A DNA stretch of 64,000 bases from Coptis chinensis (Eukaryota; Streptophyta; Magnoliopsida; Ranunculales; Ranunculaceae): assembly GCA_015680905.1 (NCBI GenBank), contig CM027377.1, positions 18,872,501-18,936,500 on the forward strand, written 5' to 3'. The position numbers and the translations under genes are program-made. Position 1 is the first letter of the stretch. The number at the start of each line of letters is the position of its first letter. The notes beneath the pieces are model-generated. The model was not told the origin of the DNA. It saw only the letters and a list, made by a program, of their open reading frames with translations, and made no database searches. Shown in pieces: positions 16,761 to 60,491 of the stretch.

Positions 16761-16843
16761 TCCGACAATCTAAATCTTTAGATCGGTCGAGGCACAAAAG
16801 GAGACAACACTCCTCCGACCACGATGAGGAAAAGGTAATAAAC

Positions 16844-18450: not shown

Positions 18451-18459
18451 CCAAGACAC

Positions 18460-18845
18460 ATGACACTTTTACATAGATGAAGCATGCAACAATAGCGGTA
18501 GTGGACTGGGGGTTGTGTTAACTTTACCAGAAGGAACACAGCTACAAAAGTCAATCAGGATCAACTTCACAACATCCAACAATGAAGTGGAGTACGAAGC
18601 ATTAATCACAGGCCTCCGCATGGCACAACAGCTACAAGTCCAGAAGCTCAAAGCTCAAAGCTCACAGTGACTCACAACTAATCGTCAAGTAGATCACCAA
18701 AGAGTATGTAACAAGCGGAGCAAATCTGGCCAAATACACTCAGGTCGTCAATAACATCATCAGCTCGTTCAAAACATTCTCCTTGGAACACATTCTTCAA
18801 GGGGATAACAGGCATGCAGACAGCCTGACTTTCTTAGCCTCGAAG
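18460..18845 (+). pseudogene. Archaeal-type RNase H (aRNH) of internal A
   Basis: The second RNase H domain that marks Tat-type plant retrotransposons. FYIDEACNNSGSG carries the first catalytic Asp, and TSNNEVEYEALITGLRMA carries the Glu. The match to copy B's HSDSQLIVKQITKEY is shifted out of frame by a short duplication of AAGCTCAAAG near 18650. Stops at 18461 and 18668 split the reading frame. Confidence 0.8.
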
Positions 18846-19826
18846 ACCCAAGAGACATGTCCAACCACAGTCTACATTGACATCCTAGAGAGACCTGCAT
18901 ACAAGCAAGAAATTGTCAACAGTCTCATAGACTTTCAGCCCTCATCCGAAGAAGAGATCACTCAATCTTGGATAGGCCCATTTATGAAATTTCTCTTACA
19001 TGGTGAGCTCCTAACAGAAGCAAATACCACTCGTGCGATAAAATTCAGAGCTCCCAGATACACCGTTATCAATGGACGATTATCCTGTAAATCCGCAGGA
19101 GGACCCCACCTAAGGTGTATAACTCCACGTGAAGGCCAACTCATTTTCGATAAAATTTACAATGGTGAATGTGGCAACCATGCAGGAGCAAGATCTCTGG
19201 CTCATAAAGCAATCGCCCAAGGGTATTATTGGCTAGGCATGCACATTGAGGCCAAGAAGTACGTTCTCAGATGCCACCAATGTCAAACATTTGGACACAA
19301 CCATCTAAGTCCGGCATGAGAATTGATCAACATAGCCAGCCTATGGCCTTTTCATATGATGGGGCTAGACATCATGGGACTATTCATCCCACAAAAGAAA
19401 ACATGACTCAAATACGTCCTAGCAGCCACAAATTACATCACCAAATGGGTTGAAGCAATCCTACTAGTTCAAGTGAAAGAAACCCACGTCATCAACTTTA
19501 TATGGACCAATATCATCACAAGATTTGGTCTCACACCCTTGTCATGGACAATGAAAATCAATTTGCTGGCTCACAGGTCAAGACATTTCTACAAAAATGG
19601 CGCATCATTCAAGCATTTTCTACACCTAGATATGCACAAAACAATGGTCAAGTAGAGGCTACCAACAAAATAATTAAGGAAAATCTCCAAAAAAGTTGGA
19701 GAGCAAGAAAAGCCAATGGCCAGAACAACTTGAGAACATTCTATGGGCATACAGAATAATAGCCAAAGCCAGTACCAATGAGTCTCCTTTCACACTTTGC
19801 TTCAAAATAGAAGCAGTCATACCATC
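18845..19826 (+). pseudogene. Integrase of internal A, truncated at LTR-B
   Basis: A zinc-binding HHCC region is visible (GNHAGARSLAHKAIAQGYYW, then CHQCQ) at 19170-19285. The core has lost frame: MGLDIMGLF and LKYVLAATNYITKWVEA, then a distorted D-D-E stretch (copy B keeps VMDNGTQF). The gene ends at IEAVIPS, where the next base starts LTR-B. The C-terminal domain and everything down to the polypurine tract are absent. Confidence 0.82.
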
Positions 19827-20279
19827 TGTAAGTACCCTCCGTTCTACACTACAACACACGTGTCCACACACCAGGTCGTACCAATCATCAGCTCGTACCT
19901 ATCCATCAAAACGTACCAACGACCCAAACCCAAGTCGTCCCCAGCATCAGTTACAATCATTTATGGAAGTAAATCAACTAGCGCAATCTTGGAGCTCAGT
20001 CAACCCAACAATCAAGGAGACATTTACTTTGTAACATCAGAATAATGGCGAATCATCAAGATAGCACACAAGGTGAATCTACACTTCATAACAGCCTGGA
20101 TCAAATAAGGAAAGTCAGCTCAAACATCTATAAGTAGAGAGAGATAAACTACGTAAGGCTTGATTCAGGTTTATACCAAGAAACTTGATACGTAGGTAAT
20201 TCTTATCCCAAGAAGAGTGCAACCATTCCCTATCAAACAAATCCTCAGGTCGTTGTCCCATAAACACCAAATCTCTACA
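19827..20279 (+). repeat. LTR-B of the Tat complex
   Basis: 453 bp, from TGTAAGTACCCTCC to ATCTCTACA. Its left flank (CCATC) is integrase sequence of internal A and shows no target duplication. LTR-B therefore did not insert independently; it is shared by the two internal regions. Confidence 0.88.
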
Positions 20280-20363
20280 TTAGCGCCGTTTGCCAGTTCG
20301 TTTCCTTAAGAAAAGAACACACACCCTTTTCTCAATCCCATGAAGCTGGTCAGAAAATCCACT

Positions 20364-21500
20364 ATGGACCCCTCACTTCAGATGTTAGCAGATCAGATGA
20401 AGACACTCCAGGAGGCCTTCATCACAATACAACAAGAAAATCAAACAATGCGTGGGCAAGCCACCTCCAACACTAACAACGGCACTCTAGACGCAGTGGA
20501 GAACAACGCCATCACAACCCTCATCACCACCACCACCAATCAAAGATTAGAAGACTTCACACAAAGGTTGGAGAAGTTGAACGACAAGACAAGCGCGATC
20601 CAGATCACTCAAAAGATACTTTAGACGTATAAGGCATCACCATTCACAACTGAAATTAGGGACAAGCAACCTCCTTCAGAGTTTATCCAACCAAAGTTCC
20701 CGCTGTACGACGGTAGCTCATGTCTAGGCCAGCACGTAGCTCGTTTCAGCCAGACTCTCACACTCTACAACGCTACAGAGTATGACTACCTTAAGTGCAA
20801 ACTCTTTCTAGCCAGCCTGAAGGACAGAGCTTTAGAATGGTTCTACACGCTCACTCCTGAATCAATCAGCAACTTCGACAAGCTAGCTGAGACGTTCACA
20901 ACAAAGTTTGTCCACAACAGAAAGAAGCAAGCCGACCTGGACTCTTTGTTTCAACTAAATCAAGCACATGGTGAGACAATCCGCGTTTTCCTAGGATGTT
21001 TCAAAAAGGAGCTCCTCTCAATAGAGCTAGGCTTAAATGATAGCTTTGTAATTAACTTATGCATTCACCAACGCTCTCCTGGATGACTCCAACCTAGCAG
21101 GATCTCTGATGCGCAACAAACCAGAATGCTTGGATAACCTATATCACATAATTGACAAGTATATCAATTATGAAGAATGGTTGGCCCAGCGCAAGGGTAA
21201 AGAAGTTCTCGCTGGAAGCGACAAGCGAGAAAAAAAATAAAACAATCACTACTCGGGCAGCAACAACAACAACAAGGGCTCTAGCTCCTACAAGCCCTCT
21301 TACATAAAAAAGGAATTCTCCAACTTCTCCAGGATGCCAAGCTAGATCCTGAAGAAGATATATACAACACCATATTTCAAACCCAACATCAATAAGGTGA
21401 TTGCCATACTAGAATGTCCATACTGCCATTTTTACAAGCTCCACCACCATAACACCAATGAATGTTGGAGCCTCAAGCACTACCTCTAAGATTTAGTTGA
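20364..21500 (+). pseudogene. gag of internal B (decayed)
   Basis: From MDPSLQMLADQMKTLQEA, open to a TAG at 20622. The gag core continues in the next frame block at 20800-21040 (KDRALEWFYTLTPESIS, then RKKQADLDSLFQL). A zinc-knuckle-like CHFYKLHHHNTNECWSLK sits at about 21423-21480. A small insertion of AATT near 21048 disturbs the frame. Slightly better preserved at its start than gag A. Confidence 0.8.
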
Positions 21501-21619
21501 GGAGGGCAAATTGAAAGAGTTCCCGCCGTAACCTCGACCTCGTGCATAAGCCGGATACAAAGCCACGTAGGCGGGAGCCGCGACCATAAACGACCTACTA
21601 ACAAAAGCGGAGCGAAGCG

Positions 21620-22515
21620 ATCGATGATCTAAATCTTCAGGTCGGTCGAGGTACAATAGGAGACAACACTCATCCGACCACGACAAGGAAAAGGTAATCA
21701 ACATGATTACAGACACCTATAATGACGAAACCTCAGGTCGGGAAAAGCGTAGACGAGTAGGCACGCTACAAGAAATCTATCACCTCTCCCACAAAGCTGA
21801 AGTCATCACTCCTACCCACCTCTCGGCAACCTCTACAACATTCACAGAGGATGATCTAGACAAGGTGTGCCTACCCCACAATGATGCCCTGGTAGTGCAC
21901 CTCAAAATCAAAGGGTGGACAGTCAAAAAAGTCCTCATCAATCCAGGTAGCTCTTGCAACATACACTTCTATCAAACATACAAGGACATGCACCTACAGA
22001 CTCGGTGCTGATAGAATCAAATGCACCGCTCTATGGGTTCAAATGAGATCGCACAGATGTCATTGGAGACGTCAGTCATCCTTCCAGTCTCCATTGGAGA
22101 AAAAGAGGACATGGTCAAAACTTTAATACTTTTTAGTGTGATCGATATCAAGTCGTCCTACACTGGCATCCTAGGGCGCAGGTGGATTCACAAGATCTAA
22201 GCAGTCCGACGATCTAAATCTCCAGGTCGGTCGAGGCATAACAGGTGACAGCACTCATCCGACCACGATGATGAAAGGGTAATCAACATGATTACAGACA
22301 CCTCCAATGACGAAACCCTAGGTCGGTAAAAGCACAGACGGGTAGGCGCGCTATAAGAAATCTACCACTTCTCCCACAAAGTTGAAGTCACCAATCCTAC
22401 CAGCTCTCAGTCAACGACCTCAATAGCATTCACAGAGGACGATCTAGACAAGGTGCGCCCACCCCACAATGATGCCCTAGTAGTGCACGTCAAAATCAAT
22501 GGTTGGACAGCCAAA
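21620..22515 (+). pseudogene. Protease region of internal B between two direct repeats
   Basis: A linker repeat at about 21620-21930 (reading MITDTYNDETSG and FTEDDLDKVCLPHNDALVVH) leads into KVLINPGSSCNI, the pepsin-like active-site motif with the catalytic Asp replaced by Asn. The protease tail VIDIKSSYTGILGRRWIHKI ends near 22198. The linker is then repeated at about 22209-22515. The second copy joins RT by the same shortened junction as internal A. The missing Asp and internal stops make this protease inactive. Confidence 0.75.
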
Positions 22516-23945
22516 AGAGTCTTCAGTTTTCAATAAAGATGTTTTTGCTTGGTTATATATCGATATGTTAGGAATCGACCCTCAGGTCGCTTGCCACAAA
22601 TTGAATGTCAATCCAAATGTAAATCCCATCAAACAACGACCTAGGAAGCTAGCACTCAAATTTCAAAAGGCCATCAATGAAGAGATAGAAAAGCTCAAAA
22701 ATGTTGGATTCAACAGAAAAGTCGAATACTTAACTTAGCTAGGTAACATCGTAGCCATTCCCAGAAGAACGGCCAGGTACGACTCTGCATATATAGACTT
22801 TACCAACGTCAACAAGCACTGCCCTAAAGACAGCTTCCCCCTGCCAAGAATTGACATACTAGTAGATCAAACTTGCGGTCACGAACTCCTATCGTTCATG
22901 GGAGCATACAGTAGATACAATCAAATACCACTTGTAGAGGAAGACCAGGAAAAGACGTCTTTAATAACCGAACAGGGAACGTTCTACTACAATGTCCTAC
23001 CATTCAGCTTGAAGAACGCAGGCGCGACCTACTAAAGACTGGTCACAAAGATGTTCAAAGACTTGCTGGGTGACACTATAGAAGTCTACATAGACGACAT
23101 GGTAGTCAAAAGCAAAAATGTTAAAGATCATATTTCTCACTTACAGGAAGCCTTTGAAAGATTGCGCCAAACAAAATGAAGCTTAACCCAGCAAAATGTG
23201 TATTTGGGGTAGCTTCAGGGAAATTCCTAGGATACCTCGTTTCACAAAGGCGCATCGAAGAAAACCCAGAACCGATACGAGCTCTCCTTCAGATGCCAGA
23301 ACCAACTTCCAAGCAACAAATCTACAAGTTATCTGGCATGGTCTCAGCCCTCAACAAATTCATCTCACGTGCATCTGACAAGTGCAGACCATTCCTGCAA
23401 ATACTAAAGAAGGGCACAACATTCACATGGATAGACAAATGACACAAAGCTTTCAACGACCTGAAAGCTTACCTGTCAACTCCGGCCGTCTTGTCCAAAC
23501 CAATAGAAGGAGAGACACTGGGGCATTACCTTGCAACTACCGACTTCGCTATCAGCTCGATTCTCTTTCGCGAACACGAAAGTATCGAAAAGCTAGTCTA
23601 CTTCACCAGCAAGACGTTAGCAGATTCAGAAAAGCATTACTTTCCAATAGAGAAAACGATGCTGTCTTTGCTATACTCAGCTTGAAAGTTTTGACCTTAC
23701 TTCCAAACTCACAACATCAAAGTCATCACAGATGTACCAATCAAACAGGTGTTGAGTTCTAGCAACAAAATAGCCCGCATGGCCAAATGGGCTAAAGAAC
23801 TCAGAGAGCACCACATCCACTTTGTTCCCAGGACGTATCACAAAGGACAGGTCATTGCTGATTTCTTAGCAGACTTCCCCATCGAATATATCAACTGGGA
23901 ACCCGAGCCAATCACTTCATTTCATCAACCAACCACCCCAGACAC
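22515..23945 (+). pseudogene. Reverse transcriptase and RNase H of internal B
   Basis: RT opens with SSVFNKDVFAWLYIDMLGID and is followed by NKHCPKDSFPLPRID, GTFYYNVLPFSLKNAGATY and the catalytic YIDD at 23087-23098. An in-frame TAA at about 23177 and others break it. RNase H runs from about 23410 (FTWIDK*HKAFNDLK) through LGHYLATTDFAISSILF. A tether segment with MAKWAKELREHHIHFVPR lies at 23779-23835. It matches internal A closely except for the region A lost. Confidence 0.85.
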
Positions 23946-23947
23946 AT

Positions 23948-24330
23948 GACACCTCTACATAGATGGAGCATACAATAATAGTGGTAGTGGACTGGGGGCT
24001 GTGTTAACTTCACCAGAAGGAACACAGCTACAAAAGTCAATCAAGATCGACTTCGCAACATCCAACAATGAAGCAGAGTACGAAGCATAAATCACAGGCT
24101 TCCGGATGACACAGCAGCTACAAGTCCAGAAGCTCAAAGCTCACAGTGACTCACAGCTAATCGTCAAGCAAATCACCAAAGAGTATGTAACAAATGGAGC
24201 AAATCTGGCCAAATACGCTCAGGTCGTCAATAACATCATCAGCTCGTTCAAAACATTCTCCTTGGAGCACATTCCTCGAGAGGATAACAGGCATGCAGAC
24301 GACCTAGCTTTCTTAGCCTTGAAGACCTAA
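23948..24330 (+). pseudogene. Archaeal-type RNase H (aRNH) of internal B
   Basis: HLYIDGAYNNSGSGLGAV, then TSNNEAEYEA*ITGFRM, then AHSDSQLIVKQITKEY: the D, E and D catalytic positions are all visible. A single TAA at 24088-24090 interrupts the frame. The end, EDNRHADDLAFLALKT, is the typical link to integrase. Confidence 0.82.
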
Positions 24331-25675
24331 GAAACATGTCCAACCACAATCTACATTGACATCCTGGAGAAACCCGTATACCAGCAAGAAAGTGTCAACA
24401 ATCTCATAGACTTTCAGCCCTCATCCAAAGAAGAGATCACTCAATCTTGGATAGGCCAATTTATGAAATTTATCTTACATGGTGAGCTCCCAGCAGAAGC
24501 AAAGACCGCTTGTGCGATAAAATTTTGAGCTCCTAAATACACCGTAATTAACGGACGATTGTTCTGTAAATCCGTAGGAGGACCCCACCTAAGGTGTATA
24601 GCTCCACACGAAGGCCAACTCATCTTAGACGAAATTCACAAAAGTGAATGTGGCAACCATGCAGGAGCAAGATCTTTGGCTCATAAAACAATCACCCAAG
24701 GGTATTATTGGCTAGGCATGCACATCGAGGCCAAGAAGTACATTCTCAGATGCCACTAATGTCAAACATTTGGACACAACCATCTAAGTCCGGCACGAGA
24801 ATTGATTAACATAGCCAGCCCATGGCCCTTTTATATGTGGGGGCTAGACATCATGGGACAATTCATCCCACAAAAGAAAACAGGACTCAAATACGTCCTA
24901 GCAGCCACATATTACTTCACCAATGGGTTGAAGCAATTCCACTAGTTCAAATCAAAGAAGTCCACGTCATCAACTTCATATGGACTAATATCATCATAAG
25001 ATTTGGTCTACCCCACACCCTTTGTGTCATGGACAACGGAACTCAATTTGCTGGTTCACAGGTCAAGGCATTTCTACAAAAATGGTGTATCATTCAAACA
25101 TTTTCTACACCTATATATGCACAAAGCAATGGTCAAGTAGAGACTACCAACAAAGCAATAAATGAAAATCTCCAAAAGAAGTTAGAGAGCAAGAAAAGCC
25201 AATGGCCAAAACAACTCGAGAACATTCTATGGGCATACAGAACAATAGCCAGAGCCAGTACCAATGAGTCTCTTTTCACACTTTGCTTCGGAATAGAAGC
25301 AGTCATACCATCAGAACTCACAATCGCAACTACACGTTATGACATCGTCGAATCAGGAGAAAATGACAACATCTTGGCAAAAGAAGTCGATCTCCTAGAA
25401 GAGTGAAGGGAAACAACTACAATATCCCTAGCTCGGTACCACTAAACAATTCAACAATCTTACAACAAGAAGGTCATCCCAAGATCTTTCCAAGCTGGCG
25501 ACCTAGTCCTCAAGGAGACAGTAGCTCCAACCAAGCTCGACCTAACATGGGAAGGCCCTTACATTGTTGACAAAGTCGTTGGAAATGGAGAATACTGGAT
25601 CAAAATGCAGCTCGGTGATATGCTTCCCCAGCCTTGGAATACAACTCTCCTCAAGCATTTTTATCAATTAGTTAT
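24330..25675 (+). pseudogene. Integrase of internal B with C-terminal domain
   Basis: Zinc finger ECGNHAGARSLAHKTITQGYYW and a CH-x2-C pair with one Cys changed to a stop (about 24757). Core D-D-E stretch with LDIMGQFIPQ, CVMDNGTQFAGSQVKAF and NGQVETTNKAINENL. The C-terminal block continues FQAGDLVLKETVAP, LTWEGPYIVDKVVGNGEYW and NTTLLKHFYQ at 25490-25665. Longer than in internal A, which stops at IEAVIPS. Several single-base stops remain. Confidence 0.85.
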
Positions 25676-25869
25676 CTCCAGATGTATCAGTCAATATGAA
25701 TACAATTTCATCAGCATTTCGCGTACAAATGTCATATTTACATTACATGAGTACCACACATCTTGCAATAGCTACCTAATTTGGGACAAAAAACGTTAGG
25801 TCGGACACCAAAGACGGAGTCAAGAGCAACTCACCTGCAATTACCACGCATTGGTTAATTACTAATCAA

Positions 25870-26110
25870 ATCCAGCCCAAGGTCCCCCAAAAGGACCCTA
25901 AATCAACTTAACACCAACGCCAGGGTTAAGCATAATTCAAGTGTAAATTCCATGCAATTATCAATCAAATACAAACATTTGGGACCCCAAAAGGACCCAA
26001 AGTCAACTTAACCCTTTGAACAGGGTTAAGCTTGGTTCAACTATAACTACCACTCAAAGGCTAGTTATCAGTCAATAGGAGTTCCCCCAAAAGGAACAAC
26101 CCAATCAAAC
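25870..26110. repeat. Diverged tandem repeats after integrase
   Basis: Units of about 100 bp carry CCCCAAAAGGACCC(T/A)AA, TCAACTTAA and CAGGGTTAAGC. Two clear copies (25885-25945, 25990-26045) and a partial third follow. Variable repeats after integrase are common in Tat-type elements. No coding signal. Confidence 0.7.
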
Positions 26111-28179
26111 ACACACAAGGAGACCTAGGTGACGACTAAGCTTATCTAGTCAGGTCGTGAACCAAACGATTACGATCTTCGCACATTAGACGATCTATCA
26201 TAGTCCAACAAATCGTCAAGACTGCCACTACACATCACAGGTCGTCATACAATCACATTCAAACAAAATTCAAAGACAATATCAATGAAGAATAGGTAAG
26301 TAATTTAACTATTTTACTACTTACACAATTTGGTTAGATGCTAAGGCCCCTAGGTTATCCTGAGAAAATGACCTCAGTACCCCTATCAAAAATCAAAAGT
26401 CATCAATATCAGTATCAGTATCAACTATAACAAGAAATAGAATATTGTTCAAACATTTCATCCATCATCAAAACGGCTGACAAAGACAAGAGGATCAATT
26501 AACACAAGAAAGATTATCCACATTCAAGGGCTCCAGTAGTCCACCCTCTTCACCAACAGGGCCACCAGCTAGATCACCACTTGCATTTACAACTTTCGTA
26601 GATACCTCTTCAGTTGGCTGAACGGCTGGAGCAGCACCAAGGTCGGACGGTAGATCAGGTTGTCTACTAACATCTGTAACAACACTATCTACAGCTACTA
26701 TTGCAGCCCCACTTTCAACCGACCTCTTTTTGTACTTACGTTCTAGATCCAAGAAGTCATCCACCAGAACGTAAGTATCCCCGCTCTCTACTAAGTCAAC
26801 CAGATTATTATATTCAGCTTGGGCTCGTTCATCAACGCCTTACGCTTTCTTACATTCACCGACCCCTAGTGCTGAACCTCCAGCTTTGAAGCATCAAGAG
26901 AAGGTTGCAATAGGGCCACATTCCCAGCCAACTCGTGCACCTGAACCCTTAAGCCTACAACTTTAGCCCTCTCCACCTGTTGCACAACCCAGAAGCTTGT
27001 CATAGGCCTCTTTGGCAGCATCCAGCTCCTTCTTGTATAGGTCGGAGATAAGGGCCATCTCTTTTAGCTTCCTATACATAGCCAAGACTTGATAACAAGC
27101 AAATCAGAAAGCAGTAACATCAAAGAACAAAACAAAGATCAGATCAGAGAGACACTTACAAAGCACAAGGAGCGATCCATATCTTTCAGGTTCACTCCTA
27201 AGTCTTTCCCGTGCTCTAGCTAGTGTCTATCTCCATCTAAGGCAATACTCTTTAGCAGCCCTCCAACAACTAATGAGGAGTTGAAACTACAGTCCCCATT
27301 CTTCACAAACTTCCTTAACCCACTCACTGGGTCCTCATAGGTGACAATCCTATCCAGAATGTCATCACCACTCTTGTCACTTGGGGCCGCACTCCCCGAA
27401 CCCTTCAACCTCTGGGCAGCTAGCTCATTCCCAATATCCTTCTTCTTACCCCGGGTTTCAGCAACCCCCACATCAACATCAAGCTCCTTCAAATTCATCA
27501 TCTTCAAAGGAGCCCGACCTGATGAAGCACAACCTTCCCCAGCACTAGGTCGCTCCTCAGACTCAGTTCGGGACTTCTTCGCCCCCTCAGTCTCAACCAC
27601 CTCAGAGTGCCTCTTCAGCTAAGACCTCCAGAAAAGAACATCAGCACTCCCACTAGCACTATGACCAGCTTGGTCACCATTGCCTCTCTCAGAACGTCTA
27701 GGAGCAGAACGGCTATCAGCAGCTCCTCCAACCGTTCTCACTCCAGAAATAGGTCGTACCTTCTGGCTCTCCCTCTCCATCTTAGCATTCGAGCTAGAAT
27801 AAGAGATATCAAGAACAAACTTACGAGCCCTTTTCTTCTTCTCAGCTTTCTTCTTGTTAATCTTCATACGACCATGCTTCTTAAAGTAGTGGGCAACCTC
27901 CCCCAAGATAGCTTGTTTCTCCTCCCAACTCAAATAAGCAAACTTTTCTATAACGTCAAGCTGAGGATGGCCCCAAATGGAAATCTCTGCACAAAAGGAA
28001 ACAAAAATATCAAAACGCACAACATATCAAACACAATACTTACATACTTACCCACAAAATAGCTACCTACCCCCCAACTTTTTACAGAGGGTATTCAGCT
28101 CACACTTCGGAGAGGGTGTAATTACCCATAACCAACAATGAATCGCCCCATTCCTCCTTACTCACCCCACAATCACAAC

Positions 28180-28657
28180 TAAGGCTGTTAACAGGCCAGA
28201 CCTGAATAAGACACACCTAGGTCCAAGCCCGCCCAAATCATATTTGATATCTTGAGTCCAAGCCCGGCCTAAGTCCTATTGGGCAAGTTCGATTCGGGCG
28301 GGCCTAGGTCAGATTAGCAATACATGGAAGCTGTTATTTTTGTCTAAAAATTTAATCAAATTTGTAAGTGGGAAGAATCGAACCCACAACTCTTTGTGTG
28401 GCGTGCACAATACTAACCAATATGGCTTCTAATTTTCTATGTCAACTTCCAATAAATATAATAGATATATTAATAATATTAAATATAAAACACATAAACT
28501 ATTATAAATTTTGGGCCGGGCCATTATCGGATTGGACATAGGTATGTCTAGACCTGGCCCAATAATCTTATTGGGCTAAATTTAAAGTCTAAGTCCTTAT
28601 CTTATCGGCTTGGATTCAATCGGGCTTCGGGCTTGTCCCGGCCCATTGACAGCCCTA
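28180..28657. mobile_element. hAT-type MITE inside the antisense gene
   Basis: 478 bp. Ends are TAAGGCTGTTAACAGGCC and, read from the right, TAGGGCTGTCAATGGGCC. The exact 8-bp target duplication ATCACAAC lies at 28172-28179 and 28658-28665. GC-rich ends (GGCCCGGGC words) pair over about 100 bp. The interior includes a tRNA-like patch described separately. Confidence 0.92.
28365..28430 (-). ncRNA. tRNA-like patch with A and B boxes inside the MITE
   Basis: On the minus strand, TGGTTAGTATTGTG (A-box-like) is followed about 25 bases later by GGGTTCGATTC (B box, 28375-28385). The spacing and order match an RNA polymerase III internal promoter. GTGGG/CCCAC-type pairing around the B box resembles a T arm. 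No full cloverleaf is convincing, so this is a tRNA-derived relic and not a working tRNA gene. Confidence 0.5.
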
Positions 28658-29055
28658 ATCACAACAGACTTCCCCCTTACTACCTGCAAACTAAAATTTA
28701 GTGCAGATGATCTTTTCACAGAAAAATGCTCTAGCACTTCTCCTAAGTGGATGTTATAACCCTTCTCATTCAACAAATCCAACATATAGAACACCCTCCA
28801 ACTATTTCCTACGAACTGACAAGGGGCCTTTCCATAAAAATTCAAAACCTCCACAGTAAGACGGGAAAATGGCAACCTCATCCCAGCCTTCAACTGCCCA
28901 TAATAAACCACTACTCCCCCATCCAGAGGAACATAGTCACTGTTATACAACCTCTTTTCTCCACTCAGGTCGTACATGGCCAGGTCGGCATTTACCCAAC
29001 CAAACTCCTCCTTCAAATTAGTATAAAGCGACCTAGGACCCAACTCCTCAGCCAT

Positions 29056-29570
29056 CGTCTCCGTTAAAGAAGATTATGAAGCCCTAACTCCACTACGAGT
29101 TCTAACCTCATCATCCCCATCACTTACCGTTCACTCTCTCCATTGATCTACCTCCACTTTCCCACTCAAACTATCACTGGTCATAGACATTATGAAATAA
29201 AAAAGAAACAAAGATCAAGTTTTGCAAAGAAACGCACCTGGAAAACAAAAAGACGAGAAAGGTTGGTTGGTTTTTCCTTTTTTTCTCTCTGCTTTTTCTT
29301 TACGTGAATTAGTAGAATAAAGAACTGAAAAGCCTTTCCCACACGAAAACCCTTTGTCTGCACAAACCTCGAGAAAAACAAACCTTTTCGTATTCCCACA
29401 AATACAATGATAACTCGCCCACAAACCACCGCAATTTTGGGCTCACGAATCCAACCTAACAGTTCCCGCACATTTTTCAAAAGCCAATTAAACCAACCAG
29501 CTGTCCGACGCATGTTTTAAAGCTTTATTTTACCATTCCTTTTTTCACACCACAGCTGTCCAAAGAATGG
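29056..29570. other. Region between the antisense gene start and the polypurine tract
   Basis: Probably the 5' part and promoter region of the antisense gene. A minus-strand frame at 29190-29513 is Lys- and Phe-rich from homopolymer runs and has no recognisable content. CTTTTTTCTCTC pyrimidine runs lie at 29270-29300. Confidence 0.4.
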
Positions 29571-32927: not shown

Positions 32928-34275
32928 CTTACAAACAAAAAAATTATTATGGAGCCATTATGTGTCCGCCCAATATGAATTTTAGTCTTCCATGTTTGTT
33001 TGATTTTGCATGTAGTTTCATAAGTGTGGCATGTATAGTTTACCAGTAGAGCTCTTTTTTAGGTGAAAAAAAGGAAACAATATAGAATTGCGAAATTTGG
33101 CATGACTTATAAGGGGTAATGATATACAGACCTACTAATCGTAATTATTGATTTACATAGGAATATGTGTCCGTGTGTATTGCAATGCATACCAACGTTA
33201 TCCAATAATGAGTAGCAATAGTAGGTCTAAAAAGTAGGTCCATGTAGCACTACTCTTTTATAAGTAGTATAGATGTGAGATGAGAATATTGACCACTGGA
33301 TATTTGGCAAGGGTACGTAATTGTCCTTGGGGCTAACTTATCGGAATCGTTTCACATAAGTAATTTTTGTTGAGCAACAATAATCGATCTGATGAGTATG
33401 ATCATGAGGATTTATCCCTTACGACCCCCACTATCTGATGGTCCAGATTCTTTTGGGAATATGGAAGGCAAGTTGTAATAAAAAAACAAAAAGAATTAAA
33501 ATATATCATATAGAAGAAACAAAGCCAATCAAAAGCAAATTGTAAACAAAATTCCAACATGAATGTGACCTTGTTTCAGTTCTAATTTATTAATAACCTT
33601 TCACAGTTCTTTCCCATTAGTATAATCGGGTAGCAGTGCAGTTACACTACTCCATAGTTATAAATGGAAGTAATAGTTGCTTAATTGAGCTTGACCTTAG
33701 AGAGTGCAATCTGTTGCCTCTCTAAACACCTTATCGGTAAACAACCCCCAATTCAAATACATTGAAAAAAAACACATGATCAACCTAATTTGTTTGTTTG
33801 TTTGTTATTTTTTTTTTGTACTCTGGGGAAAGACCCTAATTTCCCATCTAGTGGGGGTGTAATACTAGTTAACCCTTTTTTATTTTCTCCTTTTTAATAC
33901 AATTTAAGTTACCTAGCAAAAAAAAAAAAAGTAGTAGTACGTGCAGTTGGCTATCTCACTTCTTACAATGTTATTGAAGGTGACTAATTAATAGGTGGGG
34001 TACAATCTATGACGCTTTAAAACCATTTAAAGAGTGGGGACACAACGTCATGAAAAAAAAAAATTGGGGTTACCGATCTTTACAAAAACTTACTTAACCT
34101 AATGAATAAATAATAGTATAGAGGCAAGTAAAAGTATCAATCCACGTCTAAAATGCTACTTTAACTCAATAGAAATATGAACACAAATTACATTAAGTAA
34201 AAAGAAGATATATATAATGTGCTAAGTATAAATTTATAGGATATGGAATTGCTTATTAAACTATATACCAAAATA
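32928..34275. other. No gene seen
   Basis: AT-rich, without recognisable coding or inverted-repeat ends. About 33990-34065 (CTTTAAAACCATTTAAAGAG, then GGGGACACAACGTCA) resembles 49015-49060, so the two places share an old repeat or duplicated flank. Confidence 0.5.
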
Positions 34276-34344
34276 CACTACTACTGTAAAAGCTCATATA
34301 CCAATTTGTTATTTACAGTGGTAAAAAGCCTTTAGCCATCAAGT

Positions 34345-34670
34345 TTTCATACAGTGGTAACAACCACCGCGTGACAAATACTTCTAACAAAACCGTGGGG
34401 AAAAGTATCTCTATATACCACGGTTTTGATACAAACCGTGGTATTAGGGATTTACAAACCGTGGTTAATAGTCCGAAAAGTTCACTCTTATATTTACAAA
34501 CCGTGGGAAATAGTGATGATATATACGACGGTTGGATACAAACCGTGTGTTATATAAACTAATTATACCTCGGTTCTTATCAAACCGTGGTGTATAGTCA
34601 TTACAAACCGTGGGTTATATAAACTGCTTATACCTCGGTTCTTATCAAACCGTGGTTTATAGTCTTTTTT
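34345..34670. repeat. Left subterminal repeats of the CACTA element
   Basis: At least ten copies of AAACCGTGG or its complement, several in TATACC(A/T)CGGTT context. The right end (39825-40090) has the matching set. Such arrays are where CACTA accessory proteins bind. Confidence 0.85.
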
Positions 34671-35046
34671 TTTTAAAATAAAACCCCTAATTATTTGATT
34701 CTAATCATATTCATTCAACCTGCAACCTGCCCATTTTCACCATATATATCCACACTGGATTTAAAAACACATTGCTCAAATAAACAATTCATAGTGCAAC
34801 ACAAACAAAAGAAATAAATTTACACATCCAACACAAAGACATTGAATTGCTAAAAGAATTTTGAACTTTTTTGAGTCATCAATAATGAAAGAAACATCCA
34901 AATTTACTTGTTATATCAAAATAATAATGACCTAACTTGTTGCATCAATAAAAAAAACAATATATTTGTTCTATCTAAAATATCAAAAAAAAAAAAAAAT
35001 GGTGAGACCAAGCACCACACCTTAACTAGAAAGGGTCAAAACCTAG

Positions 35047-35348
35047 CTAACACTCGACGCTTGGCTCGAACGCTCCATTATGCTGGATGAATCTAAGAAT
35101 TTCAAGTCGAACAACATCAAGTTCCTCTTGTGTGTATGTATCTTTGAGGGATAGATTTGTCATCTGCACGATCAAAAATAAAAAAGTATATAATAACTAA
35201 ATAATGGAATAACACAAGATAGGTAATGCTAGTGTATGACGAATTATACCTTATTTTCAAAAGAATTATCTGAACAAGCTTCCATTATTTCTCTCATAAA
35301 CTTCATTACGTAATACCCACACTCTTTACTATCTTGTTGGTACGGGCC
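35047..35348 (-). pseudogene. C-terminal exons of a C48 (Ulp1-like) protease gene
   Basis: An exon at 35250-35348 reads GPYQQDSKECGYYVMKFM, matching the Gln and catalytic Cys neighbourhood of Ulp1-type peptidases that many plant CACTA elements encode beside the transposase. After an intron with a GTATAA donor and a GTGCAG acceptor, a last exon at 35047-35163 reads MTNLSLKDTYTQEELDVVRL and ends at TAG. The catalytic His and Asp exons are not seen, so it is a remnant. It is probably native to the element and not captured. Confidence 0.6.
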
Positions 35349-36119
35349 CTAAGTACAAACATGGAAAATATTCATAAGCATATATTTTTCCAAACACACA
35401 GTATGTATGCACAAGAATTTGTTTATTACCATAATCTTCTCAAACAAATTAACAAAGTGCCTACGATGTATGTATATAAATGTCGAGACAGCACAATGTA
35501 CTCACCAATTGTTCTCTAATATCAAGAAATCCCGCCTTGCCTCGTCTCCGTGGTTATACACTTTACACCTATTCACACCACACAACTATTTATACATTAT
35601 ATAGTTTATTTATAAATAGTTTATTTACCATTAATCATAAACACTATGGCATCAAGATAAAATCTTCTATCTATATGTCTGCCAGATACAGATTACACAC
35701 TTATTCAATCGGTGGAGGCCACGAAAGTGAAAGTGGATTATATTGAAAAACCTCCCCTTTCTGGATCGGGTCGATTGGTTTACATTAGATAACAATGCGT
35801 GACCAATTTTTTTAATTCCTCTTAGTAAAGGGTGGATTGACACCAATCGGTTTTATATTCTCAAACAAGAGATTTTCAAAATTCGGCATCAATGCATGGT
35901 TCTAGTGACGCTTTTACATGACAAACACTTTCCGAGGATCAAATTAATTCAAGTTGCTACTGAAGTTGATCTTAGAAGTTGACCAACCAATAGTTTCTAA
36001 ACAGCGAATGCTTATTAATCTAATTCTAGACATGAGTAGAAGTTTCCAATCCTAATATCACTGAAATAGTTCAACCTTATACATGGAATTAGACAAAATA
36101 CAATAAACAGAAGATATAT

Positions 36120-36390
36120 GTATGACAAACCTACAGAGCGGTTACAAGAACAGCAAAGCCATTGTTTAAGTAATGATAGCTATACAGCTTCAGATAATTT
36201 TCCCCCTTTAAAACCCTCTTCAATAAAGAATCATGAACTCGATTCAGATAAGAGCCCTGGCCTGATTTGGAAATGTTCATGTTTCTTAAGAAAATGCAAA
36301 GCAAGTGTCTCAGAAAACAATCCAAACTCCACAAAGTTTTGGAAATTGAGTATTGATGACCTAAGATTCATGTATTTCTAACACATTAAA
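36120..36390 (-). pseudogene. Unassigned exon-like fragment in the CACTA element
   Basis: A minus-strand frame reads FVEFGLFSETLALHFLKKHE and HFQIRPGLLSES before a stop. Its composition looks like true exon sequence. I do not recognise the gene. It lies downstream of the BRO1-like exons and could come from another captured locus. Confidence 0.35.
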
Positions 36391-36689
36391 ATTGCCACTA
36401 GAAAACAAAAGTTAACTAATTCTACAAACTTAGAAACCTCATAATACTTAAACGAATTAAAACCAATGCCTGAATGTCTATTTGAAAACAAAAAGTATGT
36501 AAGTCAAATTCTCACACTTACACACAGCATGAATGAGTACATTTATCCCCAAATACAAATTTGTAATTTATCTTATTTTTGCTTTTTCATACGCATTAAG
36601 GGACTGATTAATGAAAAAGACCATTTTTCAGAAATTGCATTGACAATTAAATAAGGTCAAAATACTAGATAAAATGAAAAAAGTACCTC

Positions 36690-37740
36690 TCCTAGTGCTT
36701 GTATGGAAAGAGCCTCTAAAACGCCCTCCTGACAATCCTTCGGCAACTTATTCCTAGGAATGTAAATTTCAATTTCAATCATCAGCTGGAAAGGAAGCTA
36801 AGGTACTACATAAACTGAAAGGCTCAACAAACATACTTAATATCCGGTGGAAGACAAATCAGTATATCCCGAAAGTAGAACTCCAAGTATCCTACTGCCT
36901 TAATAAACAAATCAATAGCATCCTTCTTGGAATCTGCCAAATGTATGTTTACTGTCCAACGGTTAACACGCAGTTCACTAAACCAACATATAACACAAAT
37001 TCAAGATCAATATGTATACTAAACACAAACCCTCTGATACAGTCCTCTTGCTTGCATCCATGGGATTATTAGGAAGAAGCAATGAGTTAGCCTCTAATAG
37101 TGATAGAATTGCCATCATATATACAACACATAGCACTTCAAACCATGAGCTTACTATACATGTTTCCTATTTGTGAAATTCAAATTCTAAAATCAGATGA
37201 CATATCAATTTGAAACAATATGATTGACTATACTATGAACTATCTATCTAGTCTTTTAAAGTTCTTACTTGCTGTGTGTCTTGTAAGTTCTTCCATCTGA
37301 ATTCCACCTTGTCCTCAATACTATATACTGTTCAATCACAAAACAGCATAAACATAAAAAATGTTCTTTTATGAAGTAAGGCATGAAGCTAAGGTGATTT
37401 CTCAAACCTTTTTTGGTTAATCCAAGGACAACAGGCAAGTATCTTTCAAGAGCTCCATTCAGTTGAGTATAAGCAGATCCACCTGCAAGCAAGTTAGCCT
37501 TAAAGTTCCTCGAATATTTGAAAAGAAAGATTTATTCAGTTGTAATAAGGACATACCAGTATCTTCTGCAAGTAACGAAATTTGACTCCTAAGTGTCGAT
37601 AGCTTATCAACAAGATCTCGAGGAATAATTCCTTTGAGAGCTCTTTGAAGATCAGTATCAACCAGAATTCTCATTGTCGGAACAAACACTATGACTTCGG
37701 GTATAAGACTGTTCAGCAACAGCACTGGATCTAAAATCAA
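36690..37740 (-). pseudogene. Captured exons of a plant BRO1-like domain gene
   Basis: Six consecutive exons with introns in place. Exon 1 (37557-about 37735) has PEVIVFVPTMRILVDTDLQ, then ALKGIIPRDLVDKLSTLRSQ. Exon 2 (37408-37482) has SAYTQLNGALERYLPVVLGL. Exon 3 (37269-37313) has DKVEFRWKNLQD. Exon 4 (about 37037-37119) has MMAILSLLEANSLLLPNN. Exon 5 (about 36839-36945) has KDAIDLFIKAVGYLEF and LPPDIK. Exon 6 (36690-36757) has LPKDCQEGVLEALSIQALG. From memory of the family, this matches plant endosomal-targeting BRO1-like proteins in order and spacing. The gene's end is absent. Splice borders look usable (for example GTATGT at 37551-37556 and CTTGCAG at 37483-37489). Confidence 0.7.
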
Positions 37741-37999
37741 TAGTAGCTTCTTCTAGCAATGCTGATTTTTCATCTTCGTTACACTGTTCTACGCACATTT
37801 ACTGCAGCATACTATACATATTCCACTCCCTTCTCAAACTTTGACCGGTTATCAATTGGAACTCATGCATCACATAACAAAGAAAAATCAGATTAAAAAT
37901 ATGAAAGACCAAAAATATAGTTGAAATAAAAGTCCGCCTACTTATTCAAATAAATGAGTCAAGCCAGACTACGATTCTTGGAGACTGAATGAGAGAAGT

Positions 38000-38190
38000 T
38001 CTAACCTTAGAAGTCTTCAGCCTTCCAAAATCAGTTTCAATTCTTAAACCAGAAGTCTTATTAGAGCTACAACTAGGCGCCTGATTGTCAGTTGGAAATG
38101 CAGCCCCATCATGAGCATTGAGAATTACACAATAGCATTGATTGTCAGTTGGAAATGCAGCCCCATCATAGACAGTCTTTACAACCTACA
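38000..38190 (-). pseudogene. Unassigned exon-like fragment with internal duplication
   Basis: A minus-strand frame reads VYDGAAFPTDNQCYCVILNA, then DGAAFPTDNQAPSCSS, then NKTSGLRIETDFGRLKTSKV. A 30-base segment repeats at 38083-38112 and 38140-38169 with a 57-base period, keeping frame. It may be the 5' part of the BRO1-like gene or a separate capture. I cannot tell. Confidence 0.4.
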
Positions 38191-38497
38191 GTATATAAAA
38201 CAAGATCATCTGCATGCTGCAATCTTGTTGATCAACTAGCAACTAGGTACTTAATGGATACTGCAACAGTTCTATAATTGGAGCTACTAGAAACTCTGAA
38301 AGAGAATAAGATAGGAGTATACTTAGGCCATTTACACTTGTTAGTAGGAACTTTGTAAATCTAGCAATTGTAAAAAACATTTTTTTTCCTTTCTTAGTTG
38401 GATTTTCAAGATTTAAGAAAGAAGCTTAAAAAATAAAATGATCATAACCTCTCATAAATATTACTTAGGTAATCTTTTAGTAGCTAAGAATTAGTAC

Positions 38498-38883
38498 CTT
38501 GCTTTTGTTGTAAACAAAACTACCATCAACTGCTTTAAAGTTCAGATATTTAGTAACATCAGTATGAATGAGAACACGAACCAAAGCAACATTGGCCATC
38601 ATAAATTGCAATACCACAGAGAAAATTACATTAGAACCAAATCAGGACTAAGTAGAGCCTTTTTAAATGACATTGATTCCTCTGTTGCAATTGCAAAGAC
38701 TTGTGAATGTTTTCTTCTGGATTTAACAGCAGTGATCATTAACAGCTAAAATAATACCTTAGGTATCATATCGACATTGTATTCCTTGCTGGAGCCCAGC
38801 TGCTCTGGAGGCTTGTTATCACCCCTAAATCTCTTCCACAGCTACAAGCAATAAGTAGCAAAAAATAATGATTAACACAAGGC

Positions 38884-38936
<53 letters not shown>

Positions 38937-39050
38937 TGATTCTTGAAAAATAAATGCACTTCCTCAAAAGTATTACTACATTCATACCTGAACAAGATTA
39001 AGCGAGGATGACTCTCCTCCATAATAGTCATTTCTATCCATATGCAATAC
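38498..39050 (-). pseudogene. Captured exons of a Rab GDP-dissociation inhibitor (GDI) gene
   Basis: Three exons in genomic order. Exon 38988-39050 reads VLHMDRNDYYGGESSSLNLV. Exon 38758-38841 reads LWKRFRGDNKPPEQLGSS, then KEYNVDMIPK. Exon 38498 to about 38605 reads FMMANVALVRVLIHTDVTKY, then LNFKAVDGSFVYNK. These are N-terminal segments of Rab GDI, the cytosolic protein that extracts GDP-bound Rab GTPases from membranes. DRNDYYGGE is the dinucleotide-fold signature, and the next segment belongs to the Rab-binding platform. The acceptor before the third exon reads CAA where CAG is expected, so normal splicing is doubtful. The first exon and the C-terminal half are missing. Reading frames are otherwise intact. 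Confidence 0.85.
38887..38934. repeat. (TA)n microsatellite in a captured GDI intron
   Basis: About 23 TA units, in the intron between the first two GDI exons. Confidence 0.95.
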
Positions 39051-39327
39051 CTGTTTCCCAGAGGAAAGGATGAGTATTTATGTATCGCCCAGCTGAGGAA
39101 TACAAATTATGACATGGGCAATATGAATTGCCTAACATATATATATGGGCAAACTCCCTAAGATATGAAGCAGAAAGACTCTATTGTCTTGCGTATGTGG
39201 AGGCATCTTTACCTGATCAATAGTCAATCTAAGGTCATTTTAATTAACAATGTTCCCAAAATAGATAGGAGGAACTTTTTTTATCTGAGTACCTAGAGAG
39301 TGGATGGGGTTATGTATTATTACCTAG

Positions 39328-39720
39328 TATGGTGCATCCAGCAGCTCCAGGACAATATCATCCATAGTAGGTCTCTGTTCTGGTATCATAGCACAGCACC
39401 TCATAGCCAGACGAAATAACATTTCAAATTGTTGCCTGTTGATCTGCTTGAGTACACTCTCCGATCTCCCAGCTGCGTAAGGTTCCAGGACTGTTCATCC
39501 CTTTGAATTTTCGGTCAAGGGTTTGTTCATCTACGATATTCATCTTTCCATCCTCTCCTAGAATGATTTCTAGGATGACTATTCCAGAGAAAAGACCAAC
39601 CTTGCATCTGTATCCAGAGAAAGATAGATCAACCTTGTCCGAAATGAAGAACGCAACTTGAAGAAATCTAAGATGGAGATAGAGCAGAAACCCTTTTAAC
39701 AATTGAAAAGAGGGAGTTTC
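39328..39720 (-). pseudogene. Captured fragment of a protein-kinase-like gene
   Basis: The minus strand reads SGYRCKVGLFSGIVILEIIL, a worn form of the kinase subdomain IX region (usual pattern DVFSFGIVLLEI). NIVDEQTLDRKFKGM follows. After a one-base shift near 39420 it reads MLFRLAMRCCAMIPEQRPTM, the subdomain XI Arg block, then DDIVLELLDAPY and a stop. It resembles the C-lobe of a plant receptor-like kinase. The catalytic loop and ATP site are absent. Confidence 0.6.
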
Positions 39721-40108
39721 ATCGCATAGAATTTCTTTCAAATATTGACATAGTTTCAATATTTATTTTCAATCGTTTTTGCCCTATTTTCAGTTTTGTG
39801 TTTCTAGCGAGTGGTTTTGGAAACCCTTTTATCCACGGTAGGTTTGATTTTACGAAAACATAAACCACCTTTTTCGAAAAACAGTGGGGTATATGAATAC
39901 CCAAAACAAACTACCGATATTAGGTGATTACCGTGGTATATGGCATATTAAATACCACTGTATACTGTAAATAGTGGTATTTGCTTGCACCTAAATTGGG
40001 AATGCAAACTGTACCGTGGTAAATGACTATTAGCCACCGTTATTGGAAAAACAGTGGTATATACCATTTAACCAACCGTGGTTAATGACCATTTTTGTAG
40101 TAGTGATA

Positions 40109-49249: not shown

Positions 49250-50484
49250 TTAACGGCAACATCGTTGCAGCCTTGCAGGGAATTGTTCCCTCAGCCCGAA
49301 TTTTTTTCCTTTTTGGGTAATCGATACAAAGCTATTGGTATGAGCACGAAGACAATATTGAACACGTACACAATCTGATTTCAAAATAGTTACCCTCCAC
49401 TTTCTGGTTTTTACGTCATAAGCAAAGACAGTATTTCCTCTTGCAAACACTATTACTTCTCCATCATTGAAGACCCCAACAATAGTAGACCAACAGAAGG
49501 ATATGAACTTAGAAGCTACAATTTTACGAAGCTTCTCTGGCAAATCATGGATTCTAAATTGTTTTTTCCATTGTCCTGTTTTTAAATCCTCCAGAATCCA
49601 TACGTATAATGGAAAACCATCTTCATTACCTCCTCCAGCGCATTCTAGAATGCATAGAGAACCACCTTGATCTATGAGTCGAACTCTTCGTGAACTAGGG
49701 AGTTGTAGCACTTGAATCCTTTGTCAGACACTATCTGGTCAGTCAAACCAATGTAGCAATACAAAACCCCATCAATAGAAATTCGTTGATTCGAGAAGTT
49801 GTCATTCAACGCGGAATTGTTATAATCGCATGTTATCTTTATACCATTCAACTCACTATAACAGTATGACTCTATCCAAGAACCACCTAAGCTTCTTACG
49901 TGAAATGCTGGAACAGAATAATTTTCTAACATGTCTACAATTTTGTACTCTTGAGTAGATGGAACAAATACTAAATCGTGACAAAGACAATTATGATCAC
50001 ATCGAGGAACTATAGCACATGCCTTAGTCAAAGGATTCATAACCATAATAGAAATTGGATTATGTGACCCTTCCCTTACCAAAATTAGACCATTGCAAGA
50101 AGACAATACTTTCAAATAACTTGCATTGAACAAGTTTAATTTTCTTGGCTGATCTCAATCCGTTGGGCTCCATCCATGAATGTAATTGGAACTTTCTCAT
50201 GTGCGCCATTGTCTACAAAGAGTATGCCAGGCTTATTAGAGTGCCGGAATTTAAAATCTGGTTTGGAGATAATGTTGTTCCATTCTTTACATTGATACTT
50301 GAATTTGTTAAGAAGAATGTCAGCTGGGATTCTTAGCAATATGTTCTCGACGATCTCTTTGGGAAGGTAAGGCATGTTAAGTAACTTTCCTTGATTTTCT
50401 TCTTCATCAACTTTCCTTGGTTTCTTTCTTGAGGTTTCCACTGCAGATTTTTTGCGATGATTAATGTCCCTCTTGACCTTTGGC
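49250..50484 (-). pseudogene. F-box/FBA pseudogene, paralogue of the intact gene at 7261
   Basis: From ATG at 50484 (MPKVKR) it reads EIVENILLRIPADILLNKF (F-box), then QCKEWNNII. The first frame ends at about 50136 after a one-base indel near 50140. A second frame carries YLKVLSSCNGLILVREG, DLVFVPSTQEYKIVDML and FHVRSLGGSWIESYC. Near 49728 a 13-base deletion against the intact paralogue shifts frame again. The tail has VRLIDQGGSLCILE, VWILEDLKTGQW and VFAYDVKTRKWRVTILKSD. Two frameshifts make it a pseudogene. It keeps the MPKVKR start that the intact copy lost. Confidence 0.88.
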
Positions 50485-50646
50485 ATTGTTGCAACAAAAC
50501 AAAACACCTATTCAGTATGAGCTTTTATATTGAAAGAAAAATAGAAGAACAAGCGAAGGAATTTCCCTGTACTTGGAACGTGCCGTCACACTCAATTATG
50601 GTCTGTCTATTTATAACAAAATTTCCTAACCTTTTACCTATCTATC

Positions 50647-54236: not shown

Positions 54237-57053
54237 CACTACAAGAAAATGGGCCTTTAGCCACGGATGACCCGGAACATTTGCCACGGCTCCAAGCTGT
54301 AGAATCATTTCCTACAGTTGGTAGCTGTTGGTATACTTATAATAGTTGTAGGACGACGTGACACTATTTGGCTACGTTTCCCCACAGTCATAGCCGTTGG
54401 TATTCCTACAGGTTTGAACCGTCGGATCAGATCTTGATAGTATGTGATAGGCGTGGATTTTAACCCACGGCAATAATTCGACGGGTTAGCTGGAAAATTA
54501 TTTGGAGAGGTTTGGGCGCGTACGTAGCTTTAAAATTTCCTTCTCTCAGCAAAATCAGAAAAGGAAAAACCCATAACAATAAATTTATCTAAACAAACCT
54601 CTTCCACCGCCTCTCTCACCTTCTTTCTTATCGGCTTCTCTGTCCACCAACACCAGCACCACCTTTCAAACAGCTCGTCACCATCACCTCTCTCTCAATC
54701 TCTCTCTCTCTCTCTCATCAAAGGTAATATTGTTTAAAGTTTTATTTTTTAAGTTTTTGTTTAATTAAAGGTTGGTTATTTTTTTTGTTTTGGATGGAAA
54801 TTGAGTAAATCCACATTGCAAGAATATCTAATGGTACAAAATGAGACCTCGTACACTATTATGGCGTTAGGTATCTCCAGTGAAACTTGTAAGTTTGATT
54901 TAAAGTTTGTGCAAAAGCAATCAATATCACTAAGCTAAGATCATTTACACTGGTATACCACTATATAGCCCCTACATGTATCAGGTCTAGCAACCAGGGC
55001 CGGCTCAACCCAAGTGAGGCCTTAAAAAAAATAAAAAAGCCTTGAACAATCTAAATGAGACTTCTTCTATAAGAAGATTCTTATAGAATTACTTACTATG
55101 AATGCCTAATTTATAGGATTCTATGTAGATTATACACCAGAAGATGTTTAAGAGTGATTATTTGAATTAGAGAGGCCTATTTATCGGGGAGAGTTTAGTT
55201 GAATGATTGAAATTAAAGTCCATGTTTTTCAGGAATTTAAGGCTTTTGTGTGAATCAAACTCCTATTTTCTAGGAAATTTCTTTTTGATAGTGCGTAATT
55301 ATACACATACCAAACTTTTACTGAGGCCTTTTCGAGAGTGTGGCCTTAAGCGGTCGCCTATTTCACCTTAAGGATGAGCGCATCTTTGCTAGCAACATCA
55401 TACTCCGCTTTAAATGTAACTTCAGCAGAAGTAGATGAAGAGTTGGTTTCAAGTTCTGTGGTTCCTTTTTTGTTGTTTCGGACTTCTTGGCAATTCAAAA
55501 AGGCGTTTGAGTAGGCGAACTCTTCAGTATTCATTACCTTCGATCATCTTCATCGCCAAACTACGGTAATCAAAATCAAATTCACTCTCCAACCTTTTTT
55601 ACGTGAAATTTAATTAATAATTTTGCTTCCATATAGATTCCAACTGGGATTCTTTTTGTCTTTGTAACTTTGTAGAGTTATTTTGTTATGTACTGCTCAC
55701 CTTAGCACCTTAAGAGGTAATGAAGATTGGCCAAGAGTGGCCGACCTAGTCTGGAACTTAGGATATCGGTTCCATCCATATACTATCTTTAGTATTTCTC
55801 CTCTCCATTTATTAAATAATATTGTACGGACAACAAGAAGCTTCAACTTTTAAGTGTTAGTGTGTTACAACTGGTGCTCATGTGAGAGCTTAAACCCGGT
55901 CAATAGTCTGGTTTCACTTGAAGAGGTATGGCTGATCTTTAACATGTGACAATTTTTAATACTCCACGAAGGTTGACAAAGTGTTTGTTGATAGTTAAGC
56001 TTGAGTATTATAAAATATCTAAGGAGGATGCCATTTCCAAAACACAACAAACTATTATTAGAACTTTAAATAACATTAATTTTCTATCTCAACTTTAAAT
56101 AGGATTTTCCATCGCCAAACTATTATCCTTGGTTCTTTCTCTTTGGTTTTAACCTATTATCCTTTAATTTTATTATTTTTCTATTTTGGAAAAATCAATT
56201 TTTAATAGTTGTATATGCTTTACAAAACATTATTTCTTTGGGTTTGAGGGGATGAGTTTCACTATGAATTCAATTGGAGGTTCAATTTGTGTGTTTTGAA
56301 ATTGGGAGTATCGGCAATATTTTTTATTGTGTTTGTATTGTTGTCATTGGTGAATTTGTATATGCCAAAACACAAATTTTGCTTGGTTTGCCACTTACTT
56401 TTTTGGTTTGAACTTTGAACTGTATAGTCATAATATATAACTATTAAAATACAAATTCTTTGTTGCTTTGAAATATATTGCTAGAAGCATATTTATTTGT
56501 TACGCTTTTTTTCAGCTCAAGAAGGTGACGCCGGTGCTCATAGGGTTCTCTTGTAGGTGTTTTACTTACTACGGAGGTGAGTTGTCAAATTCTTAAATGT
56601 ATTTTGTTATTGGTTGTATGTGTGAATAAAACAACTATGTAAAATGGATTTATTTAATTTCAATATAGCTCATTTGGATATGCTCTCTTAATATATATTT
56701 GTTTTCAATCAATGTGACCTCCCTAGATGGTGAGTTTTAGTTTTCTTAGTTGGAGCATATATATTGCACACATATTCCTTTAAAAAATGGATTTATATTG
56801 ATTTTTAATTTGTTTTGTTAGTCTCCTTTGCTTTATCATTTACAAATATTTTTTTTTTTTCATTACAATTATTGCTTAGGTTTTAAATATAGATTTATGT
56901 CCAAAAATAATTCATGTTTAGAGATTTTGTTAATTTGGTAAGACATTTTTGCTTGAGATGAGGCTTGGGATAAGTGTATTCATGAATGAATCATGCTATT
57001 TAGTTTGTATATAGTTTGAACTTGTGTGATTCTTGTTTATTTGTAGATACATC

Positions 57054-60000: not shown

Positions 60001-60491
60001 CCAAAGACGTTTTGCTATAACATATGAGAAGTATGCAGTCAATGGTTTTTATTTGTCACCAAAGATTATGAGTTGACTAGAAGAAACCAAAACGATGGAG
60101 TTTGTACCAAGTGCCCAACTACCTTTTATTTCGAGTGCTAAGGATAAAAATCCTATAGAAGCATCTGGCTGAATACTATGGTGTTCTTAGGAAAATTGTT
60201 CAATTGGAGTACCCAAATACGATTACAAACCCGGTGTTATTCAAGTGTGATTGGGTTAAGCTCCCCAAACGGTGTAAAAGGTGGATAACGAGTCAAAAGT
60301 TGTTGTTGGTCAATCTATCCAATATGCTTGGTTCATCTCAAATGAATGGCGAGCCATTCATTCTTCTTGAGCATGTATCCCAGGTCTTTTACTCTAAAGA
60401 CCCAGTCAATCTTGATTGGCATGTGGTTATTGAGGTTCAAGAAAGGTTTATTCGATATGGACTCAACAAGAGTAGTGTCGAGAAAATATAG
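57054..60491 (+). pseudogene. TNP2-type CACTA transposase (TnpD-like)
   Basis: Starts at MEGFSPNDRSSW just after a TTGTAG acceptor. Domains in order: transposase-associated domain (FMDFVVKNYRNKLLMPCPCR with its Cys pairs) at 57054-57330; remnants of the TNP2 catalytic region at 57672-58560 (LGLTYEKIDACPNDCILYW, DIDIYLQPLVHELQSLWDKG-like text, YLGHRRFLPQLDPNR); DUF4218 at 58812-59375 (MKSHDYHILMQHLLPVLI, LGPVFYRWMYVFERY); DUF4216 near 60204-60491 (PVLFKCDWVKLPKR, EPFILLEHVSQVFY). In-frame stops and shifts at 57638, 57888, 58422 and several later sites make it inactive. These proteins bind and cut CACTA ends. Confidence 0.85.

Follow-up and report, generated by a model that had tools for sequence, protein, structure and literature searches.

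The stretch of Coptis chinensis DNA analyzed here, 64,000 nucleotides in length (C1:18872501-18936500 on the C1 contig; "the window" below), contains a 5,830-bp CACTA element at window positions 34276-40105. Positions within the element (e coordinates) are window positions minus 34275. The element begins CACTACTAC and finishes GTAGTAGTG, carries subterminal repeats of the AACCGTGG type near both ends, and is flanked by an ATA target site duplication on the left (34273-34275) and on the right (40106-40108). The first-pass annotation of this DNA had proposed a CACTA element with precise ends and a target duplication, and its ends, duplication and coordinates proved exact. When we searched the genome (936 Mb in 116 contigs) with the whole element, at least 53 matches were returned; one other, L010 (C2:30663847-30669678), was full-length and many were partial. 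These copy counts are lower bounds, as 40 of 1,289 candidates were scored. L010 has TAA at either end, and an older relative, C9b (C9:33501758-33506807), has TTA at either end. Both terminate at bases matching the ends of the window element, so the proposed ends pair elsewhere in the genome, each time with a separate duplication. The element thus combines terminal inverted repeats (TIRs) starting with CACTA, a 3-bp duplication, short subterminal repeats and several copies with the same ends. Because L010 has its own TAA duplication, the loaded element has itself moved.

The two ends of the element are of different types. The left end (34276-35441), which comprises the TIR CACTACTAC, the AACCGTGG repeats and the last exons of the element's own gene, matches 17 listed places at 91-96%, the matches running to e1149-1166; we refer to it as A-type, and its junction with the adjoining sequence was read base by base. 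The following segment (35442-36602) is a B-type CACTA body, 90-93% identical to loci L029, L033, L034 and L036. A B-type left end was seen in three of these four, the sequence of L034 not having been read that far. The right end with its TIR (39589-40105) is also B-type, with 94% identity to C9:33506282 and C8:71813683, and it matches the right ends downstream of the A-type elements L018, L016 and L027 at 75-80%. Two minus-strand exons in the A-type left end, at 35250-35348 and 35047-35165, the latter with a stop codon, together gave a Pfam match to Ulp1 (peptidase C48; PF02902, E=1.4e-4). Of 32 loci searched, 28 contain this Ulp1 piece in the same orientation, a count that includes the window element itself (as L009) and the overlapping loci L016 and L043, and in a typical A-type body (L019) minus-strand open reading frames (ORFs) extend further upstream of it. 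C48 is described as a component of CACTA elements (PMC8978399). These observations indicate that the two left-end exons form the end of the element's own Ulp1 gene and are not host cargo. Of the exons initially left unassigned, these two can thus be removed from the list of host pieces, which leaves a possible minus-strand exon within the B-type body (35510-35570).

A six-frame Pfam scan of 34900-39701 (E<=0.01) returned GDI as the sole family, on the minus strand, and no CACTA transposase domain, although the scan was not sensitive, since the Ulp1, subtilase, BRO1-like and kinase pieces described here escaped it as well. With no transposase match, the element is probably non-autonomous, as expected for Pack elements. 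Host fragments lie between its TIRs and donor loci for BRO1-like, GDI and RBM25-like pieces lie elsewhere in the genome, which makes it a Pack-CACTA of the same kind as soybean Tgm-Express1.

The cargo comes from four, probably five, host sources and not from three, as first proposed; all of it is on the minus strand, in agreement with the single orientation initially reported. From left to right, the marginal fifth source is a piece resembling a subtilase propeptide (Inhibitor_I9; 36131-36367, PF05922, E=4.5e-4, 21.3 bits against a cut-off of 21.2), for which a PDB search gave no match. Next are BRO1-like exons with their introns (36603-37706), 96.6% identical to C2:22370902-22372011. That sequence is part of a longer locus extending to C2:22365711, whose pieces span residues 1-95, 114-217, 216-254 and 279-331 of a 331-residue query (the last 114 residues of which are provisional), and which looks like a complete gene. 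Outside it, high-identity BRO1 fragments occur in four places, namely the window element, L010, a C8 element and C9b. The joined BRO1-like exons had no match in a Pfam search; an intronless BRO1-like paralogue matched Pfam BRO1 with E=5.9e-7 and 29.1 bits, below the cut-off of 35.1. Two further exons, one truncated at the BRO1 junction (37703-38110), recur in unchanged order elsewhere in the genome, for example at C7:70997893-70998766 and C2:83277978-83278849. We presume these to be RBM25-like; neither Pfam nor PDB searches supplied a name for them.

The best-identified cargo is Rab GDI, represented by exons a (38988-39050), b (38758-38841) and c (38500-38605). Joined, they gave a Pfam E value of 9e-40 and a best PDB match to Rab GDI of E=1.3e-28. 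The genome holds two intron-bearing Rab GDI genes, on C6 and C4. Separately, Rab GDI copies with long unbroken matches, likely retrocopies, were seen at C8:2253507, C6:45926154, C1:38308974, C7:8370638, C6:77585714, C3:2579417 and other places. The last fragment (39324-39587) resembles the C-terminal part of a receptor kinase in two reading frames; alone it gave E=0.19 in Pfam and only E=0.39 in PDB. Since the GDI and BRO1 introns align with the native loci, capture took place at the DNA level, as the first reading of the element had held, and the exons trace to separate loci (GDI, RBM25-like and BRO1-like), so that a single continuous native gene does not account for them. The suggestion that the donors share a role in membrane traffic found no support; the cargo of related elements includes ribosomal protein, enolase, chaperonin and F-box pieces.

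The RBM25-like, GDI and kinase cargo is also found inside a second, distinct CACTA element. The minus-strand segment at 37703-39596 corresponds to part of element X9 (C9:66787604-66794306), with 99.5% identity over 410 bp and 96.0% over 1,460 columns, the two blocks being adjacent in X9. X9 has inverted CACTA ends that differ from those of the window element and a CAA target duplication, and contains the kinase, GDI and RBM25-like exons; its version of the kinase piece, with the two reading frames joined, matched Pfam with E=1.6e-5. A 31-bp direct repeat with a 26-bp filler (38082-38169) in the window element is present as a single copy in X9. A Helitron origin of this C9 GDI locus was considered and is excluded by the inverted CACTA ends and the 3-bp duplication. 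Because the GDI, kinase and RBM25-like pieces are contiguous in X9, BRO1 and GDI were not captured in one act. The GDI exons of the window element are instead second-hand, having passed from the C6 gene to an X-type CACTA element and from there to the window element.

Related loci preserve what look like stages of this assembly. In the B-type loci L029, L033, L034 and L036, sequence matching e1166-2327 is followed by other sequence, and in C9b, C8, L010 and the window copy e2327 is followed by BRO1. C9b has a B-type left end, BRO1 and a right end 94% like that of the window element; no X9 piece was found in it. The A-type left end up to e1166 is present in C8, L012, L014, L010 and the window copy. 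When the bases at the joins were read, e1166 and e2327, the latter being the left junction of BRO1, were both blunt. BLAST ends had pointed to a 4-bp overlap on the left side of BRO1, which was discarded on this reading. At e3431, ATAA is shared between the two sides, and near e5314, where the X9 piece meets the right end, GAAAA is shared, with small adjacent differences that blur the join.

The sources, the junctions and the intermediates can all be read from the DNA, and we consider it about 90% probable that the element is a non-autonomous Pack-CACTA built in steps. A B-type CACTA element would have captured 1.19 kb of the BRO1-like gene, sense with its own Ulp1 gene. An A-type left end would then have substituted for the B-type left end, and a 1.9-kb piece of X9 or a close sister, preloaded with kinase, GDI and RBM25-like sequence, would have been inserted between BRO1 and the right end. 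That the BRO1 capture preceded the left-end swap is suggested by parsimony. The finished element then moved, probably by means of transposase made elsewhere, giving the two full copies on C1 (in the window) and C2. Joining may have proceeded by end joining or template switching during excision-gap repair, or by merger of neighboring elements. The two full copies differ at 47 of 2,300 bases left of e2327 and at 2 of 3,477 to the right. In a wider alignment with 59 left-side differences, 24 were private to L010, 10 were private to the window copy, 19 had both states elsewhere, 5 matched neither and 1 had too few copies. Gene conversion was considered for this left-side excess; because many of the differences are clustered, misassembly of this many-copy stretch is an equally likely cause.

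Other origins were weighed against this stepwise history. Direct capture of three separate host genes by one element would fit the presence of the three gene identities, but it is disfavored by the 1.9-kb contiguity with X9, and we regard it as very unlikely. A hybrid could also have formed by merger of two neighboring CACTA insertions with complementary end deletions and not by gap repair, a model that a review (PMC13317346) describes for Arabidopsis Pack-CACTA elements. The A-type left end, the B-type body and right end, and the blunt e1166 join are what such a merger would leave; alone, however, it accounts neither for the BRO1 and X9 piece within B-type sequence nor for the microhomology (ATAA) or the filler-containing 31-bp repeat, and we think it possible, with the odds leaning against it. 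Stepwise assembly itself faces several opposing points. The private changes in X9 indicate that it is a sister of the donor and not the donor itself; the subtilase, kinase and RBM25-like identities are weaker than that of GDI; and microhomology is not general, as e1166 and e2327 are blunt and the join between the X9 piece and the right end is blurred.

We also asked how captured pieces are oriented relative to Ulp1. Seven capture events were counted: subtilase (marginal), BRO1, the X9 block, ribosomal L14/L23 (in L034, L036 and L029, counted once), enolase (L012), TCP-1 (L043) and a KIB1-type F-box piece (C8). All seven were sense to Ulp1 (two-sided p=0.016, in a partial and insensitive survey); limited to events from scans that covered both strands, the tally falls to five (p=0.06). 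Among 24 loci, 12 were picked for distinct bodies and scanned with Pfam. Their sense strands yielded four families (C48 in three frames, enolase in two, ribosomal L14 in one and TCP-1 in one, the last with E=0.0056 and not traced to its locus), whereas the 36 antisense frames of the same 12 loci yielded none. Plus-strand Pfam scans of the window element, of L043 and of the C8 tail likewise gave no family, nor did the opposite strand of X9. In X9 the GDI and AIR9 matches share one strand, a comparison of the two with each other and not with X9's own genes. This pattern raises the idea that the CACTA clan acts as a one-way exon trap, in which fragments are kept only when sense to Ulp1 and ahead of its last exons, and loaded pieces pass between CACTA families, so that exons are relayed through the genome; we hold it tentatively and think it rather unlikely to be correct as stated. 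Chance or a detection effect could produce the same one-strand arrangement. The events number seven at most and come from a non-random sample, BRO1 came with the original finding, the subtilase piece came from a hand-picked minus-strand ORF, and C8 was treated as a single element though its duplication is unclear. Moreover, most short exons escape Pfam even when they lie on the sense strand, as the recovery of GDI alone from 34900-39701 illustrates. The antisense and plus-strand scans speak against such an effect, to which we would give not quite even odds.

The captured exons are unlikely to be maintained as protein. GDI exons a and b retain intact splice sites and frame, as would be expected if the fragments were kept because they encode a chimeric protein. 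In both full copies, however, exon c has lost its splice acceptor (CAA in place of CAG), L010 is also frameshifted there, and the kinase piece is readable only across two frames; we therefore consider this explanation highly improbable, and the GDI exons look non-coding, in a state of decay and not of selection. A chimeric transcript may still be possible, the loss of the exon c acceptor notwithstanding. Most likely the element has no effect on the plant, or else acts as an exon trap or a source of small RNAs.

Elsewhere in the window, a second CACTA-like region lies on the plus strand at 54237-60491, with CACTACAAGAAAA at 54237 and Transpos_assoc, DUF4218 and DUF4216 domains on the same strand between 57030 and 60491. 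Two F-box-associated (FBA_3) genes were found at 7069-8403 (plus) and 49250-50507 (minus); the former also has a KIB1-type match, and a KIB1-type fragment occurs in the C8 CACTA element as well. Pieces of Gypsy-type retrotransposons occupy 16000-29100, including RT_RNaseH (17639-18208) and Transposase_28 (28597-29073).

Gene capture by CACTA elements has mostly been argued from end products. Here, one genome holds B-type loci that lack BRO1, an element that has gained only BRO1, the completed mosaic and a supplier of the GDI block. Such surviving intermediates allow direct tests of the capture order, of the junctions and of the strand bias. They also caution that a captured fragment need not derive straight from the gene it resembles. 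Elements of this kind are already known; what deserves further study is the relay of cargo from one element to another and the placement of the pieces on a single strand. Among the titles and abstract openings searched, none matched cargo transfer between elements or a strand bias of capture, which is not proof of their absence from print. Pack-CACTA elements that combine coding DNA of several loci have been described, and in maize they hold the most distinct loci (PMC8903248); the window element is unlike the Pack-CACTA and Pack-TYPE elements described there in its A/B hybrid ends, its second-hand cargo and its captures, so far, on the Ulp1 strand. It resembles Chenopodium CACTA elements in having Peptidase_C48 as an element part and host fragments inside, but captures in Chenopodium are placed in the 5′ region, ahead of the coding sequence, whereas here they replace the front of the Ulp1 gene (PMC8978399). 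The closest likeness is to Tgm-Express1, a 5.7-kb soybean CACTA element with five unrelated host fragments that retain introns and are spliced into chimeric transcripts (PMC1947982). The window element differs from it in that part of its cargo came from another CACTA element and in that intermediates of capture were found.
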